Assembly (NCBI GenBank): GCA_009996555.1
Contig: JAACZX010000038.1
Span: forward strand, 1-11,046
From: Chitinophagaceae bacterium
Lineage (GTDB): Bacteria > Bacteroidota > Bacteroidia > Chitinophagales > Chitinophagaceae
Direction: 5' to 3'
DNA length: 11,046 nt
Of this stretch, positions 3,081 through 11,046 are shown piece by piece. The position numbers were made by a program, and so were the translations under genes. The notes below the pieces were generated by a model. It had not been told where the DNA came from. It did no database searches and worked only from the letters and a program-made list of their open reading frames with translations. Every line of letters starts with the position of its first letter. The stretch's first letter is position 1.

Positions 3081-6000
3081 ATGAGCGCTAAGTACAGGGA
3101 ATTTTCGCAGTTGAATCTGCCGTCGATCGAACAGGAAATACTGGCAAAATGGGATGCTGAACAGGCTTTTCAGAAAAGTATTGAGGTAAGGGACGGAGCT
3201 ACGCCGTTTGTGTTTTACGAAGGCCCGCCCAGTGCCAATGGTATGCCCGGCATTCACCACGTTATTTCACGTACGCTGAAAGATCTGGTTTGTCGCTACA
3301 AAACCATGAAAGGTTTTAAAGTGAACCGCAAAGGCGGATGGGATACGCATGGTTTGCCGATTGAGTTAGGTGTAGAGAAAGAATTGGGTATTACGAAAGA
3401 AGATATTGGCGTTAAGATCACCGTTGAAGAATACAACAAGAAATGCCGTGAAGCAGTATTGCGTTATAAAGACAAGTGGGATGAGATCACGAAGAAGATG
3501 GGTTACTGGGTTGACTTGAATGATCCTTACATCACTTTCGAAAATAATTACATTGAAACTCTGTGGTGGTTGTTGCAGCAGTTGTACAAAAAAGGATTGC
3601 TGTACGAAAGTGTAAGCATTCAACCTTATTCACCGGCTGCAGGTACAGGTTTAAGTTCGCATGAACTAAATCAGCCCGGTACCTATAAAGATGTGAAGGA
3701 CACCAGTGCAACAGTGATGTTCCGTGCAGCGCAGGATGAGAAGAGTAAATTTTTGCACGATGCTGTGCATGGTGCCGAAGTGTTCTTCATGGCTTGGACA
3801 ACCACACCTTGGACATTGCCAAGCAACCTTGGCTTAACGGTTGGACCAAACATAGAATATGTATTGGTTCAAACATTCAATCCGTACACGCATCTTCCCG
3901 TAAATATTGTATTGGCGAAAGATCTGGTGCACAAGTATCTGAAAGCTGAAGGAGAGAATGGTGATTTTGAGGGATACAATGGTGAACAGAAATTATTACC
4001 GTGGAAGATCATCACTTCATTCAAGGGCTTGCAACTCGAAGGTTTGCACTACGAGCAACTGTTGCCTTATGAAGCAAACAGTATGGAAGTAGTAAAACGC
4101 ATTACGCCCGATGCAGATCCTTTCCGTGTATTGATCGGTGATTTCGTAACGACTGAAGATGGTACAGGTATCGTACATACCGCTCCTGCATTTGGTGCAG
4201 ATGATTACCGTGTGGGTAAGAAATACAACATCGGTATTTTAACCATGGTGGATCGTGAAGGAAAGTTTGTTGATGGATTAGGTGAGTTCAGCAACCGTTA
4301 TGTAAAGAATTATAAAGACGAGAAAGATTATGTAGATGTGAATGTCGACATCTGCGTAAAACTGAAAAAAGAGAATAGAGCATTTAAAGTAGAGAAATAC
4401 GAACACAGTTATCCGCATTGCTGGAGAACTGATAAACCGATACTTTATTATCCGCTCGATGCATGGTTCATTAAAACAACAGCCATCAAAGACAAAATGG
4501 TGGAGTTGAATAAAACCATTAACTGGAAACCAAAATCAACAGGCGAAGGCCGCTTCGGCAACTGGTTAGAGAACATGGTTGACTGGAACCTGAGCCGCTC
4601 TCGTTTCTGGGGAACTGCATTGCCGATCTGGAAAACAGAAGATGGCGAAGAAGAAATTTGTATCGGTACTGTTGAAGAGCTGAAAGAAAATGCAGCAAAA
4701 GCAGATGCAACACTCGGCACCAACAATGCAAAATATTTAGGCAACGATATCGATCTGCATAAACCTTACGTGGATGAGATCATTCTCATCAGCCCAAGTG
4801 GCAAAGCCATGAAACGTGTACCAGACTTAATCGATGTTTGGTTCGACAGTGGTGCTATGCCTTATGCACAATGGGGATTGGATCATGAGAAAGTGAAGAA
4901 AGGAGAGAAGTATCCGTTCAAACTTCCTGCAGGTGTGGAAAAATTTGAGGATCTCTATCCGGCAAGCTTTATTGCTGAAGGTGTGGACCAAACACGTGGA
5001 TGGTTCTATACACTTCATGCGATCGCCTCACTGGTATACGATAGCGTGGCTTACAAAACGGTGGTGAGTAATGGTTTGGTGTTAGATAAGAATGGTAACA
5101 AAATGAGTAAGCGCCTCGGCAACGTGGTGAACCCGTTTGAAACCATTGAGAAATTTGGTGCCGATGCTACACGCTGGTATCTCATCACCAATGCATCGCC
5201 TTGGGATAATCTGAAATTTGATATTGAAGGCATCAAAGAAGTGCAACGCAAATTCTTTGGTACACTTTACAATACCTACCAATTCTTCGCTTTGTACGCA
5301 AATGTGGATGGCTTTGCGTTTAAAGAGGCAGCTATCCCGGTAAAAGATCGTCCTGAAATTGATCAATGGATCTTATCATCACTTCATACGCTTGTCAAAA
5401 AAGTGACCGATGCAATGGATGATTATGAACCAACGCAGGCGGGAAGGTTGATTGAAGAATTTGTTGATGAGCACTTAAGTAACTGGTATGTGCGTTTGTG
5501 CCGCCGCCGTTTCTGGAAAGGCGAGTACGAACAGGATAAGATCAGCGCTTACCAAACTCTATATGAATGTATTGAAACGGTGCTTCGTTTAATGGCGCCG
5601 GTTTCTCCTTTCTTCAGCGATGCTATTTTCACTGAACTGAATAAAGTAAGTGGCCGCTTTAATGCAGCATCAATTCACCATGTTGATTTCCCGGTTGCGG
5701 ACGCAAGCCTGATCGACTCAGCTTTGGAAGAGCGCATGCAGCTGGCGCAAGATGCTTCATCTTTGGTGTTATCGCTCCGCAAGAAAGTGAACATCAAAGT
5801 GCGCCAGCCTTTGCAGAAAATATTGATCCCGGTGTTAAGCAATGGTATGCAGGAGCAGTTCGGCAAGGTGGAAGATATTATTAAGAGCGAAGTGAATGTG
5901 AAAGAGATCGAATACCTCACGGCCGACAATACCTTTATTAAAAAGAAGATCAAACCCAACTTTGTGGCATTGGGCAAAAAGCTGGGTGCGAAGATGAAAG

Positions 6001-6467
6001 CGGTGTCCACTGCCCTTGCTCAGTTCAGCCAGGAACAAATTGCACAAATTGAACGTGAAACTGTTTATAATCTGTTAGTTGATAATGAAACTGTTCCATT
6101 ATATTTGACAGATGTAGAAATTCTCAGCGAAGATGTACCCGGTTGGATGGTAACGAATAAAGGAGCCGTAACCGTGGCGCTGGATGTGACGATAACCCCC
6201 GAACTGCTGAACGAAGGCAATGCCCGGGAACTGGTGAACCGCATCCAGAAGATCCGCAAGGAAAGCGGGTTTGAGCTGACTGACAGGATTGCGGTAGAGC
6301 TATCGTTTAACGAAGCCCTCGAGCCATCCATCACTCAATTTAAATCCTATATTTGCGCCGAAATTTTGGCAGACAGCCTCGATTTGGTTCCTGAAATTGC
6401 AGATGGAACGGAGATTGAGGTAAATGAAATCAACCTTAAAGTTCAAGTACACAAAAAAGGAGGATAG
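3081..6467 (+). CDS. ileS: Isoleucyl-tRNA synthetase, type 2, with GIHH in place of HIGH
   Basis: IleRS charges tRNA-Ile with isoleucine in the cytoplasm. At 1128 residues it is far longer than E. coli IleRS1 and lacks a C-terminal Cys zinc finger, as expected for the eukaryote-like type 2 enzymes. The N-terminal class I motif reads N-G-M-P-G-I-H-H-V: aligned without gaps to the E. coli segment N-G-S-I-H-I-G-H-S, the HIGH positions are Gly57-Ile-His59-His60. The editing (CP1) domain carries W239-T-T-T-P-W-T and, later, G-T-G-I-V-H-T-A-P-A-F-G. The second catalytic motif is K674-M-S-K-R-L-G-N, the KMSKR form typical of type 2. G-V-D-Q-T-R-G-W-F precedes it, and W-Y-V-R-L-C-R-R-R marks the anticodon-binding helical domain. 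The protein is complete. Transcription probably starts from the -7 box at 3042, and the next gene starts one base after the stop. Confidence 0.97.
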   Translation: MSAKYREFSQLNLPSIEQEILAKWDAEQAFQKSIEVRDGATPFVFYEGPPSANGMPGIHHVISRTLKDLVCRYKTMKGFKVNRKGGWDTHGLPIELGVEKELGITKEDIGVKITVEEYNKKCREAVLRYKDKWDEITKKMGYWVDLNDPYITFENNYIETLWWLLQQLYKKGLLYESVSIQPYSPAAGTGLSSHELNQPGTYKDVKDTSATVMFRAAQDEKSKFLHDAVHGAEVFFMAWTTTPWTLPSNLGLTVGPNIEYVLVQTFNPYTHLPVNIVLAKDLVHKYLKAEGENGDFEGYNGEQKLLPWKIITSFKGLQLEGLHYEQLLPYEANSMEVVKRITPDADPFRVLIGDFVTTEDGTGIVHTAPAFGADDYRVGKKYNIGILTMVDREGKFVDGLGEFSNRYVKNYKDEKDYVDVNVDICVKLKKENRAFKVEKYEHSYPHCWRTDKPILYYPLDAWFIKTTAIKDKMVELNKTINWKPKSTGEGRFGNWLENMVDWNLSRSRFWGTALPIWKTEDGEEEICIGTVEELKENAAKADATLGTNNAKYLGNDIDLHKPYVDEIILISPSGKAMKRVPDLIDVWFDSGAMPYAQWGLDHEKVKKGEKYPFKLPAGVEKFEDLYPASFIAEGVDQTRGWFYTLHAIASLVYDSVAYKTVVSNGLVLDKNGNKMSKRLGNVVNPFETIEKFGADATRWYLITNASPWDNLKFDIEGIKEVQRKFFGTLYNTYQFFALYANVDGFAFKEAAIPVKDRPEIDQWILSSLHTLVKKVTDAMDDYEPTQAGRLIEEFVDEHLSNWYVRLCRRRFWKGEYEQDKISAYQTLYECIETVLRLMAPVSPFFSDAIFTELNKVSGRFNAASIHHVDFPVADASLIDSALEERMQLAQDASSLVLSLRKKVNIKVRQPLQKILIPVLSNGMQEQFGKVEDIIKSEVNVKEIEYLTADNTFIKKKIKPNFVALGKKLGAKMKAVSTALAQFSQEQIAQIERETVYNLLVDNETVPLYLTDVEILSEDVPGWMVTNKGAVTVALDVTITPELLNEGNARELVNRIQKIRKESGFELTDRIAVELSFNEALEPSITQFKSYICAEILADSLDLVPEIADGTEIEVNEINLKVQVHKKGG
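6458..6464 (+). promoter_or_regulatory. Shine-Dalgarno sequence inside the ileS end
   Basis: AAGGAGG ends near 6463, five to six bases before the ATG at 6469. It is formed by the last Lys-Gly-Gly codons of ileS. A consensus Shine-Dalgarno is uncommon in Bacteroidota, and it decides the start of the next gene over an in-frame ATG at 6424. Confidence 0.75.
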
Positions 6468-6468
6468 A

Positions 6469-7326
6469 ATGGCAATCAAAAAGAAAGCAGCTAAACCGGC
6501 CCCAAAGAAGCCTGCTGCAAAACCAGCTCCCAAAAAGGCGGCTAAGCCTGCTGCAAAAAAGCCAGCTCCTAAGCCTGCCCCTAAAAAGGCGGCTGCTAAA
6601 CCTGTTGCAAAAAAGCCAGCACCCAAGCCCGTTGCTAAAAAAGCAGCTGTAAAACCGGCTGTCAAACCTGCGGTAAAGGCTGCAGTAAAACCAGCGCCGC
6701 CAAAAGCGGCAAAACCGGAAGTTAAAAAGCAAGCGCCGGCAGCAAAACCGGAAAGTGCAATTAAGCCCATCGTTAAACAAGCAATAAAAGATTTGAAAAA
6801 AGAAGCGAAAAAGCCGGCACCTCCTAAAGAGGTAAAGCCAATCAAAACATCGGTAAATACATCGGTGAAATACCAACCTGATTTTACCAAGTCAGTATTA
6901 GACAAAACAGTGGAAGAAAAACCTCAGGGTCCATTGGTTCGTTACAGTGATGCCGATCTGCAGGAGTTCAAAGAGCTTATTCAGCGCAAGCATGAAGCAG
7001 CGAAAAAAGAATTGAACTATTTGCAAGGTCTGATCACCCGCAAGGACGATCAGGGTGGTGATGGTGATGATGGCCGTTACATGACCATGGAAGATGGCAG
7101 TGTAAGTATGGAGCGTGAGCAACTGAGCCAGATGGCCAGCCGCCAGATCACTTACATTGATCACCTGGAAAAAGCACTGATGCGTATCGAAAACAAAACC
7201 TACGGTATTTGCCGTGTAACAGGCAGGTTGATCGATAAAGCCCGTTTACGTGCAGTACCTCATGCTACATTAAGCATTGAAGCGAAGATGGGAATCGTAA
7301 AAGGCCCTCAACCTTCAGGCGAATAA
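6469..7326 (+). CDS. DksA/TraR-like protein with long Lys/Ala/Pro-rich N-terminal tail
   Basis: Predicted 285 residues in two parts. Residues 1 to about 125 are almost only Lys, Ala, Pro and some Val, a strongly basic disordered tail like those of histone H1-like or AlgP-like proteins. From about residue 158 (RYSDADLQEFKELI) there is a DksA/TraR-type domain: a coiled coil whose turn holds an acidic stretch (DDQGGDGDDG), then M-x-x-E-R-E-Q-L-S-Q-M-A and the C-terminal segment Y-G-I-C-R-V-T-G. DksA proteins bind in the RNA polymerase secondary channel and usually hold zinc by four Cys; here only Cys248 remains and Thr251 occupies the second position, so zinc binding is unlikely. The form with CRVTG is, as I recall, usual in Bacteroidota. 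The tail may bind DNA or RNA; this is inference. It is cotranscribed with ileS (one-base gap) and followed by a terminator. Confidence 0.85.
   Translation: MAIKKKAAKPAPKKPAAKPAPKKAAKPAAKKPAPKPAPKKAAAKPVAKKPAPKPVAKKAAVKPAVKPAVKAAVKPAPPKAAKPEVKKQAPAAKPESAIKPIVKQAIKDLKKEAKKPAPPKEVKPIKTSVNTSVKYQPDFTKSVLDKTVEEKPQGPLVRYSDADLQEFKELIQRKHEAAKKELNYLQGLITRKDDQGGDGDDGRYMTMEDGSVSMEREQLSQMASRQITYIDHLEKALMRIENKTYGICRVTGRLIDKARLRAVPHATLSIEAKMGIVKGPQPSGE
6496..6654 (+). repeat. Tandem 51/54-bp repeats coding the Lys/Ala/Pro tail
   Basis: Three units follow each other in register: 6496-6546 (51 bases), 6547-6600 (54) and 6601-6654 (54). The last two code P-A-A-K-K-P-A-P-K-P-A-P-K-K-A-A-A-K and P-V-A-K-K-P-A-P-K-P-V-A-K-K-A-A-V-K. 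The first lacks one codon. The arrangement indicates growth of the tail by in-frame duplication. Confidence 0.8.
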
Positions 7327-7360: not shown

Positions 7361-7395
7361 GGGTTGTCAACATGTAAGCGTTGACAACCCTTTTT
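7361..7395 (+). terminator. Intrinsic terminator after the ileS operon
   Basis: GGGTTGTCAA (7361-7370) pairs perfectly with TTGACAACCC (7381-7390), and C7371-G7380 extends the stem to 11 bp. TTTTT at 7391-7395 follows directly. It ends the ileS-DksA-like transcript and separates it from the efflux locus. Confidence 0.95.
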
Positions 7396-7397
7396 AC

Positions 7398-7430
7398 TGT
7401 GCTGATGTTGATCACGATGGATGCAGCACA
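7398..7430. promoter_or_regulatory. Candidate TetR operator before the first regulator
   Basis: TGTGCTG (7398-7404) and CAGCACA (7424-7430) are perfect inverted arms with 19 bases between them. The interval holds TGATCA at 7409-7414. The site lies just after the terminator and 29 bases before the first TetR start, a normal place for autorepression. Confidence 0.35.
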
Positions 7431-7443
7431 TGTATTTTTTCAT

Positions 7444-7451
7444 TTACTTTG
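7444..7451 (+). promoter_or_regulatory. Possible -7 box before the first TetR gene
   Basis: TTACTTTG matches the Bacteroidota -7 consensus TAnnTTTG at five of its six fixed positions. It is only seven bases from the ATG at 7459, so a transcript from it would be almost leaderless. Confidence 0.28.
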
Positions 7452-7458
7452 GCATTCT

Positions 7459-8061
7459 ATGGCAGTGGATCAGAAACAGGAAATGATTATTGAAGCGGCG
7501 ATCAAACGGTTTGCACATTTTGGGGTAAACAAAACCACCATGAATGAAATTGCTGCCGATCTTTCCATTTCCAAAGCACTGCTGTATTATTATTTCCCTG
7601 ATAAGATGAGTTTGTTTGCAGCTGTGCTGGAACATATTACCTCAATGGCTGCAGAAGCAGTAGATAAACTGCTTGCCAAAGAAACCGATCCTATGAAAAC
7701 GATAATCGGTTTTCTTGACAACCGCACCGAATTCATCATTCGCTATCACAATATTATCGAATACCTGCGTGGTATGAAGCCCGCCAGTATGCCCAAAGAA
7801 CTGCAACAGCTATTCACCAATATCCGTAAACGGGAGCTTAGCCGGATTACCACTATTATGGAGCAGGGCAAAAAGCAAAAACTGTTTCAGGTGGAGAATG
7901 CTGCAAAAACAGCCGAACTGTATTTCGATTTCCTCGAAGGTTTCCGCATGGCCTTCTTTGTGCAAAACCCCAGCATCTTCCCCGATGAGAAGCAATTCCG
8001 GGCCATTCTTAAGCGTGAAAAAGAATTTTCTGCAATTTTTTTGAAAGGGTTAACGAAGTAA
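7459..8061 (+). CDS. TetR/AcrR-family transcriptional regulator (first of three)
   Basis: Predicted 200-residue DNA-binding repressor. The N-terminal TetR domain covers about residues 7-53, with the helix-turn-helix at roughly 27-46 (TTMNEIAADLSISKALLYYYF) and the usual D-K after it. The remaining helices form the ligand-binding and dimer part, whose ligand cannot be read from sequence. ATG 7459 was chosen because the in-frame codons before it cover the candidate operator and promoter, and because the length before the KQE motif then equals that in the second regulator. In the first 49 positions I count 28 identical to the second regulator, and the last 27 residues also align, so the two are full-length paralogues. 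It heads the efflux gene group and probably controls itself and the downstream genes; that is inference from position. Confidence 0.88.
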   Translation: MAVDQKQEMIIEAAIKRFAHFGVNKTTMNEIAADLSISKALLYYYFPDKMSLFAAVLEHITSMAAEAVDKLLAKETDPMKTIIGFLDNRTEFIIRYHNIIEYLRGMKPASMPKELQQLFTNIRKRELSRITTIMEQGKKQKLFQVENAAKTAELYFDFLEGFRMAFFVQNPSIFPDEKQFRAILKREKEFSAIFLKGLTK

Positions 8062-8075
8062 TTATTTTTTTGTCT

Positions 8076-8083
8076 TAATTTTG
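8076..8083 (+). promoter_or_regulatory. Bacteroidota -7 box (TAATTTTG) before the second TetR gene
   Basis: TAATTTTG is an exact TAnnTTTG match in the 70-base gap between the first two regulators. It overlaps by two bases the inverted repeat at 8082-8104, so a bound repressor there would block initiation. No convincing -33 box was identified. Confidence 0.5.
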
Positions 8084-8104
8084 ACTTTTAAATCAAAAAA
8101 GTCA
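8082..8104. promoter_or_regulatory. Candidate operator: TGACTTTT inverted repeat
   Basis: TGACTTTT (8082-8089) and AAAAGTCA (8097-8104) are perfect inverted arms around seven bases. A second pair, TTTTGAC (8079-8085) and GTCAAAA (8109-8115), overlaps it. AAAAAGT recurs at 8096, 8112 and 8120, with steps of 16 and 8 bases. The site covers the expected transcription start of the second regulator. Confidence 0.45.
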
Positions 8105-8131
8105 GTAGGTCAAAAAGTAAAAAAGTTAAAC

Positions 8132-8728
8132 GTGAAAAGTGCAGATAAACAGGAACAGATACTGGAAGCAGCCGTAAGGCGCTTATCGCATTTCGGGGTG
8201 CATAAAACCACACTCACCGAAATAGCCGATGATCTGAGCCTTTCCAAGCAGGCGCTTACCTATTACTATCACGATAAAACCGCATTGATTGCAGCAGTAG
8301 TCAGCAAAATTGCCGGCGATTACCTGGCCGATGTTGAAAAACTTGCAGCACAAGAGCAGGCCATTGAACAGCTGTTCATCAACCTGGTAGATATGCGGCA
8401 TCGCTTTTTTGAACGTTACAAACTGCTGTTTCTCCAAATGAACCTGGAAGATATCGGTCATAGTACTGATATACACGAAGCAAAAATGCAGGTGATAAAA
8501 GCGGAAGAAGCACTGCTGGTAAACGTATTGCAGGCTGCCATAGAGAAAGGGGAAGTAAGAAAGATTGATGCAGCGCATACCATACAGTTAATGATGGATA
8601 TGCAGGCAATGATCATTTATAGCGTGAAGCATGTTTGCCCTTTTCCTACAGAAGAACATTTTCTGCAACTCATGAAAAAGCAGAAAGAAGTTTTACAGCT
8701 GATGATTAACGGTATAATGAGTAAGTGA
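8132..8728 (+). CDS. TetR/AcrR-family transcriptional regulator (second of three)
   Basis: Predicted 198-residue repressor with the TetR domain at about residues 7-53 and the helix-turn-helix near 27-46 (TTLTEIADDLSLSKQALTYYY). No ATG is available at the front. GTG 8132 gives exactly the same distance to the KQE motif as in the first regulator and leaves the -7 box and inverted repeat outside the gene. TTG 8081 would add 17 basic residues but would begin inside that -7 box. The protein is a paralogue of the first regulator along its whole length. Its stop TGA (8726-8728) shares one base with the ATG of the third regulator (TGATG), which implies translational coupling. Ligand unknown. Confidence 0.85.
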   Translation: MKSADKQEQILEAAVRRLSHFGVHKTTLTEIADDLSLSKQALTYYYHDKTALIAAVVSKIAGDYLADVEKLAAQEQAIEQLFINLVDMRHRFFERYKLLFLQMNLEDIGHSTDIHEAKMQVIKAEEALLVNVLQAAIEKGEVRKIDAAHTIQLMMDMQAMIIYSVKHVCPFPTEEHFLQLMKKQKEVLQLMINGIMSK

Positions 8729-9336
8729 TGACAGCACGTATTAAACAGAAAGCACAACAATTGTTTTTTAAATACGGCATCAAAAGTATTTCGCTTGATG
8801 ACCTGGCAAAACATGCGGGTATTTCAAAGAAAACAGTGTACCTGCATTTTGCCGATAAGCAGGCAATTGTTCATGAACTGTTGAATACTGTATTGGAGCA
8901 ACATGAAGATGCATTTGCAGCATGTGCAAAAAATGCGACCAACGCAGTAGAAGAAATATGGAAGCAGGCACAGGTGGTTTATCCTGCATTACCCGATGTA
9001 AGCCGTTTGTTTTTTTATGATCTGCGCAAATATGATGCAGCAGGCTGGAGCAAGGTAAACAATTATCTCAATGGGTTTTTGCTGCCTTGTTTTAAAGCAA
9101 ACATTGAACGTGGTATGGCTGAAGAATTATTCAGAAGCGATCTGCAACCGGAGCTGACAGCAGAGATACGTATGCAGCAGGTAAACACCGTATTCGACAG
9201 CAATGAATTTTCTGTGCGGAAGCTACATGCTACTCAACTCATGAAAGATCTGTCGCAGTTTTATTTACATGCAATCACTACACCAAAAGGCAAAACAGTT
9301 TTAAAGAAATATACAAATCAAAAGGATGACAACTAA
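8728..9336 (+). CDS. TetR/AcrR-family transcriptional regulator (third of three)
   Basis: Predicted 202-residue repressor. Residues about 3-47 form the TetR domain, with helix-turn-helix S-L-D-D-L-A-K-H-A-G-I-S-K-K-T-V-Y-L-H-F at 22-41, followed by ADK. It is clearly more distant from the first two, so it is not a product of the same recent duplication. The effector domain has no feature that reveals a ligand. A GTG three bases upstream (8725) is an alternative start. Because it overlaps the second regulator by one base and tolC by up to 11 bases, it is probably translated in step with both, and it is the regulator closest to the pump genes. In many Bacteroidota a TetR gene directly precedes tolC-adaptor-RND genes. 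Confidence 0.9.
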   Translation: MTARIKQKAQQLFFKYGIKSISLDDLAKHAGISKKTVYLHFADKQAIVHELLNTVLEQHEDAFAACAKNATNAVEEIWKQAQVVYPALPDVSRLFFYDLRKYDAAGWSKVNNYLNGFLLPCFKANIERGMAEELFRSDLQPELTAEIRMQQVNTVFDSNEFSVRKLHATQLMKDLSQFYLHAITTPKGKTVLKKYTNQKDDN

Positions 9337-10720
9337 GCAACAATCACAAAACAAACGGTTTTCGATGAAAACAGCAGGCAGTGTTTTATTACTGCTGTTC
9401 TTCTTTGCACCGGGCATGGCCAGTGCGCAGGAACCGAAAACGCTTTCTCTCAAGGAAGCTTTGCAATATGCATTGCAGGCAAACAGAGATGCACGTAAAG
9501 CAAAACTGGATATTGAAAATGGTCAATACCAGGTTGATGAAGTAAGAGCAAGAGCCTTACCACAGGTGAGCGGCTCTGCATCTACAACGTACAATCCCAT
9601 TCTCATGTTAAGTGCAGTACCGGGCGAATTAGCCGGAAGACCTGGTGAAACGTTCCTGGTGGCTTTCGGACAAAAATGGAATGCAGGTGCAGGTATTTCA
9701 GTAAACCAAACCATTTTCGACAATTCGGTATTTGTTGGATTAAAAGCTGCAAAAACAACAGCAGAGTTTTACCGCATTAATGCACAGCTTACCGAGGAGC
9801 AGATTATGGAGCAGGTTGCAACAACCTATTACCAGGTGTTGGTGCAACGCCAGCAACTAACGGTAATTGACAGTACATTAAAAAACATGCTGACTACCAA
9901 AAATGTATTGCAGAGTTTGCTTGATAATGGACTGGCGAAGAAGATCGATCTCGATCGTATCATCGTTAGCATTTCCAACATGCAAAGCCGAAAACAACAA
10001 TTGCTGAATGGTGTGGCGCTGTTAGAAAACCAGTTGAAGTTTTATATGGGTATGCCCATCAACACAGCTATCATTGTTCCCGATATTGATTTAAAAAGCA
10101 TCAATCCGAAAGGCATTGCAAAAGCTGATTCAATTGATGTGAATAGTCGTACAGAAATGCAGGTGTTGCGTAAACAGGAGCAACTGCTCAACTATCAGAA
10201 AACATCAGTTAAAGGTGCCAATCTTCCAACGGTGTCGGTAGGTGGTAACTATTCTTACAATGCGTTGGGTAATAAATTTCCTTTGTTTAAAGGGGCAAGC
10301 CAGGGTGTTAATTGGTTCGATGTTTCATCCATCAATTTAAGTATTAAAGTGCCCATTTTCAATGGCGGTGCTACTAAAGCAAGAGTAAAGCAGGCAGATG
10401 TTGCTATTCGTAAACTGAACGAAGACATCAACTATACCAAACTGGCTTTGAATCTTGCATACGAAAATGCAAAAACAAAGATCAACAACAGCATCATTAC
10501 ACTCAATACACAAAATGAAAATGTAAAACTGGCAGAAGAAGTGTATTTCAATACCAGGAACAATTACAACAATGGATTGGCAACACTTACCGATCTGCTG
10601 AATGCTGAAAACTCTTTAACCGAAGCACAGAATAATTATTCCGCCGCTTTGCTTGATTACAAAGTATCGGAAATACAATTACTGAAAGCACAGGGCAACT
10701 TACAATCATTATTAAACTAA
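9326..10720 (+). CDS. TolC-family outer-membrane efflux channel
   Basis: Outer-membrane trimeric channel component of a tripartite efflux or export system; it would link the outer membrane to the adaptor encoded next. The 464-residue protein has a signal peptide with hydrophobic core VLLLLFFFAPGMA and a likely cut at ASA|QEP. The mature part opens with S-L-K-E-A-L-Q-Y-A-L-Q-A-N, the standard start of the outer-membrane efflux protein domain. Two long helical repeats follow; the second closes with Y-N-N-G-L-A-T-L-T-D-L-L-N-A-E-N-S-L, a typical TolC feature. Start is uncertain: ATG 9326 overlaps the third TetR gene by 11 bases with AAAAGG before it, while ATG 9365 gives a shorter, more ordinary signal peptide. 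Substrate cannot be inferred. Confidence 0.93.
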   Translation: MTTKQQSQNKRFSMKTAGSVLLLLFFFAPGMASAQEPKTLSLKEALQYALQANRDARKAKLDIENGQYQVDEVRARALPQVSGSASTTYNPILMLSAVPGELAGRPGETFLVAFGQKWNAGAGISVNQTIFDNSVFVGLKAAKTTAEFYRINAQLTEEQIMEQVATTYYQVLVQRQQLTVIDSTLKNMLTTKNVLQSLLDNGLAKKIDLDRIIVSISNMQSRKQQLLNGVALLENQLKFYMGMPINTAIIVPDIDLKSINPKGIAKADSIDVNSRTEMQVLRKQEQLLNYQKTSVKGANLPTVSVGGNYSYNALGNKFPLFKGASQGVNWFDVSSINLSIKVPIFNGGATKARVKQADVAIRKLNEDINYTKLALNLAYENAKTKINNSIITLNTQNENVKLAEEVYFNTRNNYNNGLATLTDLLNAENSLTEAQNNYSAALLDYKVSEIQLLKAQGNLQSLLN

Positions 10721-10731
10721 CAAAGCATACA

Positions 10732-11046
10732 ATGAAAAAGAATTCATTCGTAAAAATTATTACAACCATTGTTATCCTGGCTGCAGCCGTTGCATCAATT
10801 GCCTGGGTATTGAAACATAACAAAGCAAAGAACAAAGCAAAAACCGATGTAGTAGCACAGGCTGCAGGTGATGTTGCGGTGAAAACAAGCACGGTGCAAA
10901 ACCTTGCACTGGATCTTGATTTTGCTGTGAACGGAAATTTTGCGCCTTGGGCACAAATGGATTTTGCAGCAGAAAGTTCAGGTCGTGTTGTAAAACTGCT
11001 GGCCGATGAGGGTACTTATGTGAAAGTGGGACAAACACTCGCCATT
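10732..11046 (+). CDS. HlyD/AcrA-type membrane fusion protein, N-terminal part (cut by window end)
   Basis: Periplasmic adaptor that joins an inner-membrane pump to the TolC channel. The first 105 residues are present and the frame stays open to the last base. MKKNSFVKIITTIVILAAAVASIAW is an uncleaved membrane anchor or signal (hydrophobic about 8-26), followed by a Lys-rich linker (H-N-K-A-K-N-K-A-K). V-K-T-S-T-V-Q-N starts the membrane-proximal strand, and G-R-V-V-K-L-L-A-D-E-G-T-Y-V-K-V-G-Q-T-L at about 84-103 is the first half of the lipoyl-like barrel-sandwich domain, with the usual 'G-x-V-x-x-G-Q-x-L' ending. The gene starts 11 bases after the tolC stop. An RND-type pump gene probably follows outside the window; that part is inference. 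Confidence 0.92.
   Translation, partial: MKKNSFVKIITTIVILAAAVASIAWVLKHNKAKNKAKTDVVAQAAGDVAVKTSTVQNLALDLDFAVNGNFAPWAQMDFAAESSGRVVKLLADEGTYVKVGQTLAI

Follow-up and report, generated by a model that had tools for sequence, protein, structure and literature searches.

Locus and gene product

The DNA analyzed here (the window) is a stretch of 11,046 nucleotides from contig JAACZX010000038.1 of a Lacibacter-like Chitinophagaceae bacterium (assembly GCA_009996555.1). It carries ileS, which codes for an isoleucyl-tRNA synthetase (IleRS) of type 2 (IleRS2) with a rearranged signature motif (Table 1). The protein matched TIGR00392 with 1013.4 bits (cut-off, 621.4), which identifies it as an isoleucine--tRNA ligase, and it contains the Pfam domains PF00133, PF08264 and PF19302.

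Table 1. Features of ileS and its product, and DUF559 domains elsewhere in the same genome
Feature	Position	Strand	Location	Basis
ileS, type 2 isoleucyl-tRNA synthetase (IleRS2), 1128 residues	3081..6467	+	window	TIGR00392, Pfam domains, nearest PDB entries P. megaterium IleRS2
GIHH codons, residues 57-60, swapped class I signature motif	3249..3260	+	window	translation, gap-free alignment, conservation
Ser51, at the place of the type 1 Tyr (EcIleRS Tyr59)	3231..3233	+	window	residue read; correspondence via GPPx context
Second signature loop of class I (KMSKR), residues 674-678	5100..5114	+	window	sequence reading
Anticodon-binding domain PF08264	5361..5822	+	window	Pfam
DUF5915 domain (PF19302), C-terminal, no zinc finger found	5871..6455	+	window	Pfam, CxxC scan
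DUF559 in frame inside LeuRS	L003:334-2268		own genome	Pfam
DUF559 in frame inside MetRS	L004:1489-3771		own genome	Pfam
DUF559 in frame before second half of chorismate synthase; first half cut by contig start	L263:2-1114		own genome	Pfam

Where class I synthetases carry HIGH, the window IleRS reads GIHH. A degenerate pattern of GPPxANG and then the motif, canonical or swapped, matched the window once (3222-3260) and none of 200 shuffles. In phmmer, GIHH aligned gap-free with the signature motifs of the IleRS2 of Priestia megaterium (PmIleRS2) and T. thermophilus (TtIleRS2; 1ile). Translation, pattern search and alignment confirmed the original prediction, which had read GIHH at this place, and located the catalytic motif there rather than elsewhere in the protein. 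PmIleRS2 is represented in the PDB with HVGH (8c8v, 8c8u and 8c9d) and with GVHH (8c8w); the latter, the top PDB match of the window IleRS, was deposited as an engineered GVHH mutant (PMC10485003; statements on this paper, on PMC4861432 and on PMC10835994 refer to the available parts of their texts).

The enzyme belongs to type 2

The nearest solved relatives of the protein were type 2 enzymes (PmIleRS2), and type 1 structures matched it at 247-325 bits. Its C-terminal part matched DUF5915 and no zinc-finger family in Pfam, and CxxC after about residue 700 was absent from the window protein and in 29 of 29 aligned sequences of the phylum. The description as a 1128-residue type 2 IleRS lacking a C-terminal zinc finger was therefore upheld. 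KMSKR had been listed as a further type 2 trait; the motif is present, but we rejected it as a marker, because PmIleRS2, TtIleRS2 and 7 of the 26 phylum loci with a readable loop have KMSKS. Ser51 presumably corresponds to Tyr59 of the E. coli enzyme (EcIleRS), as both would lie in a GPPx context. Type 1 enzymes have Tyr there and type 2 enzymes Phe or Thr (PMC4861432). Ser51 is not Tyr, yet neither Phe nor Thr, and was counted in favor of type 2.

A single ileS was found

The genome is a draft of 4.13 Mb in 801 contigs, 92.87% complete. We searched it for a second ileS using PF00133, TIGR00392 and the window protein as queries. PF00133 occurred in five places, namely ileS, ValRS (C113), one LeuRS frame (C721, twice) and MetRS (C643), and only the window gene exceeded the TIGR00392 cut-off. 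A weak match of 26.3 bits was also seen in a frame of 521 residues (C155). Since these searches of the draft gave no further ileS, the window enzyme is very probably the housekeeping IleRS, in line with what had been suggested from the window alone.

Among the matches listed for 60 genomes of the family and 118 of the phylum (in the latter, at most six candidates were scored per genome), no second full-length IleRS stands out. The rows next after those of IleRS scored 98 bits in the family and 125 bits in the phylum, at 22-32% identity, which is below the scores given by type 1 structures. Among the IleRS rows themselves, some were split and others truncated by the end of a contig; genomes G038, G016 and G170 gave short N-terminal pieces.

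The motif swap is the ordinary form in the phylum

Residues 57-60 were read from tblastn alignments in the loci at hand. The nearest named genomes are those of Lacibacter cauensis (97% IleRS identity) and L. luteus (96%), also Chitinophagaceae. The motif was readable in 57 of the 60 family genomes, G043 lacking the N-terminal part and G046 and G049 a clear IleRS row; 56, the own genome included, had GIHH and one had AIHH, with identities to the window protein of 62-82% over the matched parts (57% for one short piece). The AIHH locus (L031) was discarded: it sits at the edge of a contig, contains a stop and has a garbled motif context, and the same genome has a clean GIHH on another contig (L316).

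All 118 phylum genomes were readable, 86 with GIHH, 32 with GVHH and none with HXGH. This sample spans 67 genera and is weighted to complete genomes and a few genera; 113 of its genomes were counted together, and the remaining five (the own genome, G004, G014, G031 and G034) are those already included in the family count. GIHH was also present in 79 of 80 named loci, a set that leans to near kin because it holds the best 80 of 582 relatives; the remaining locus (L142) had no coverage of the motif. Gly57, His59 and His60 were invariant in the 29 aligned full-length phylum sequences. As every sampled phylum genome carries the swap, it is an inherited, ordinary form in this phylum and sets this organism apart less than the original prediction suggests.

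IleRS frames of 1206-1328 residues were noticed in four relatives from the family (L295, L296, L297 and L298, from G057, G047, G045 and G006, respectively), with in-frame stretches of approximately 115-200 residues at the place of residues 519-558 or so of the window protein.

Proposed role of His59 and predicted mupirocin resistance

According to the original prediction, a GXHH subset of type 2 enzymes shows much higher mupirocin resistance than normal type 2; published work agrees with this (PMC10485003, Brkic et al. 2023). In its tree, 86 of 163 IleRS2 have G/AXHH, that is, Gly or Ala first and His in the third and fourth positions, as in the GIHH of the window IleRS. When the motif was exchanged in three enzymes, from one form to the other and the reverse, the inhibition constant (Ki) for mupirocin changed 175-, about 430- and 823-fold, the first value being a ratio that we calculated from Table 1 of that paper. 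In IleRS2, unlike in IleRS1, the tip of the motif helix is shifted, which makes room for a His in the third place and leaves the adenine undisturbed. The side chain of this His takes both the place and the role of the first His in HXGH, and in a model it clashes with mupirocin. For G/AXHH enzymes, Ki values ranged from 35 µM to about 10 mM.

By homology, Gly57 would occupy the first motif position, and His59, in the third, would serve in isoleucine activation as the first His does in HIGH. His59 would also clash with mupirocin, for which reason we predict a Ki of tens of micromolar to millimolar, i.e., hyper-resistance of a presumably active enzyme. We are confident that the gene encodes the single housekeeping type 2 IleRS of this bacterium, with a GIHH motif in which His59 has the proposed role, and with a predicted resistance to mupirocin.

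Several points weigh against this reading. HYPFE is given as a type 2 motif (PMC4861432); the window IleRS has instead a longer loop with KYPFK (residues 599-620; 4875-4940). Exact HYPFE was present in 15 of the 29 aligned phylum sequences, and the loop may represent a change inside a clade that has HYPFE; the type 2 assignment was kept because the other features fit it. The available text of PMC10485003 names no measured enzyme from this phylum. Given the span of Ki among G/AXHH enzymes, 'hyper' resistance may be modest in the window enzyme. Moreover, a Gram-negative envelope could itself confer mupirocin resistance on whole cells, and the portion absent from the draft might still hold another ileS.

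The longer KYPFK loop was also observed in L. cauensis (L064), and loci L069 and L039 are likewise longer at this place, where model confidence is low.

Alternative explanations

A sequencing error might have produced GIHH, or the active site might have decayed. A garbled motif does occur in one relative, the L031 locus described above, but nothing of the kind was seen in this window: the reading frame is free of stops, the three key residues are invariant, and all 118 phylum genomes agree. We rejected an error on the grounds of this conservation and consider either event negligible in probability. The gene could also be an acquired resistance paralogue of the MupA/MupB kind, next to a canonical housekeeping enzyme. 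The corresponding profiles did match, at 792.7 and 759.9 bits, as expected of a type 2 IleRS; however, these scores are far under the exception-level cut-off of 1900, the window gene is the only ileS found in the draft, and the same enzyme is present in L. cauensis, in L. luteus and in the family sample. On score and uniqueness, an acquired MupA/MupB enzyme was rejected as very improbable.

Another explanation concerns the cause of the swap and is compatible with the predicted resistance: the rearranged motif may have become fixed long ago as another version of the active site and be kept in the phylum for reasons other than mupirocin, with resistance as a by-product. We regard this as possible, albeit on the doubtful side. 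The presence of the swap in all sampled phylum genomes and of HXGH in none agrees with it, as does the lack of a second full-length IleRS among the matches listed. The Deinococcus enzyme, which naturally has ALHH, matches its HVGH mutant in activity (turnover number [kcat], 45.5 versus 24.4 per s), which also fits, whereas the authors presume antibiotic selection (PMC10485003). In addition, the swap can carry a cost, since GVHH reduced kcat 4-fold in TtIleRS2 and 11-fold in PmIleRS2 and raised the Michaelis constant (PMC10485003). In its widest form, the whole phylum would use an ancient class I site without the HIGH order, with hyper-resistance as a by-product and target-level resistance as the default, a tentative proposal that we rate below even chances.

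Novelty and significance

The swapped-motif kind is already in print, and the window enzyme is a further member. The uniform swap in the sampled phylum genomes is a small addition and may already be visible in the published tree. The available main text of PMC10485003 contains no word that begins with 'bacteroid', although the tree may well include such sequences. Such words are likewise absent from the available text of PMC4861432, and one table row of PMC10835994 names the isoleucyl-tRNA synthetase of an Ornithobacterium together with mupirocin. No title on target-level mupirocin resistance or on a uniform swap in this phylum appeared among the matches listed. In this organism the finding is nothing unusual. 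Its interest lies in the large natural set of single-copy enzymes with a swapped motif, seen in all 118 phylum genomes sampled, that now joins the published mechanism. This set suggests target-level mupirocin resistance as a default in the phylum, and it provides natural enzymes for studying a class I active site without the first His.

DUF559 domains inside housekeeping enzymes

The own genome has four DUF559 (PF04480) domains, which we take to be Vsr-like nucleases. Three of them are in frame with housekeeping enzymes (Table 1), and the fourth is a separate open reading frame of 204 residues (L266). Pro/Gly-rich peptides resembling translated repeats flank the inserts. DUF559 was detected in 27 of the 60 family genomes, in many cases in short frames of its own, and in 11 of the 14 genomes of the genus (own included), where number and frame length vary. 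At 28 further family loci, a crude marker found the domain 13 times, in 3 short frames and 10 long ones. All 10 long frames (L270, L271, L278, L280, L281, L282, L283, L285, L293 and L294) hold another enzyme or domain according to Pfam, a count favored by the choice of long frames. The partners were LeuRS in five cases (one with two DUF559 stretches) and, once each, MetRS, chorismate synthase, homocysteine S-methyltransferase, an M23 peptidase and adenine deaminase. The insert has the look of a mobile element placed in frame. Among the literature titles listed, none dealt with such inserts, and this lead looks more surprising, and seemingly more novel, than the IleRS motif.

Other genes in the window

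A gene for a DksA/TraR-type zinc finger protein with a long Ala/Lys/Pro-rich N-terminal part lies at 6424-7326 (+). An in-frame ATG at 6469, noted by eye, would start this protein just behind the ileS stop at 6467, and because of this adjacency the two genes may be co-transcribed. Three consecutive TetR-family regulators (7381-9336, +) are followed by an outer-membrane efflux protein (9326-10720) and, by eye, the start of a membrane-fusion protein (10732-11046), forming what appears to be an efflux operon headed by a run of three regulators. Upstream of ileS are haem genes, for a HemJ-like protein (363-953, +; 106.9 bits, under the cut-off of 138.05) and for HemN (1561-2925, -; 454.8 bits, over the cut-off of 324.95). 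Between them, a small protein with the haem c-type motif CAPCH is encoded (992-1459, +), for which Pfam gave no match at an E value of 0.001. The window contains no tRNAs and no RNA families at gathering score.

Comparison with known systems

The closest counterparts of the window enzyme are the G/AXHH IleRS2 of Deinococcus radiodurans and Streptomyces griseus, also type 2 with positions 1 and 3 of the motif swapped; going by the description in PMC10485003 and by the sequence of the window enzyme, the D. radiodurans motif is ALHH against GIHH here. The HXGH IleRS2 of P. megaterium (8c8v) and T. thermophilus (1ile) have the same fold and domain order, and the former also shares the type 2 C-terminal domain, but they differ in their HVGH motif and in their low mupirocin Ki values, 1.08 and 0.20 µM, respectively (PMC10485003). 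MupA and MupB, the acquired mupirocin-resistance enzymes, are related to the window enzyme at 760-793 bits, but the latter stays under half of their curated cut-off, and no second ileS was found beside it. With IleRS1 (P. megaterium 8c9e, S. aureus 1qu2) the window enzyme has the reaction and the class I core in common. IleRS1 differ by the Tyr59 marker and a zinc-binding C-terminal end, and GXHH made IleRS1 inactive (PMC10485003, PMC4861432); their structures also scored lower than those of type 2 against a predicted structural model of the window enzyme.
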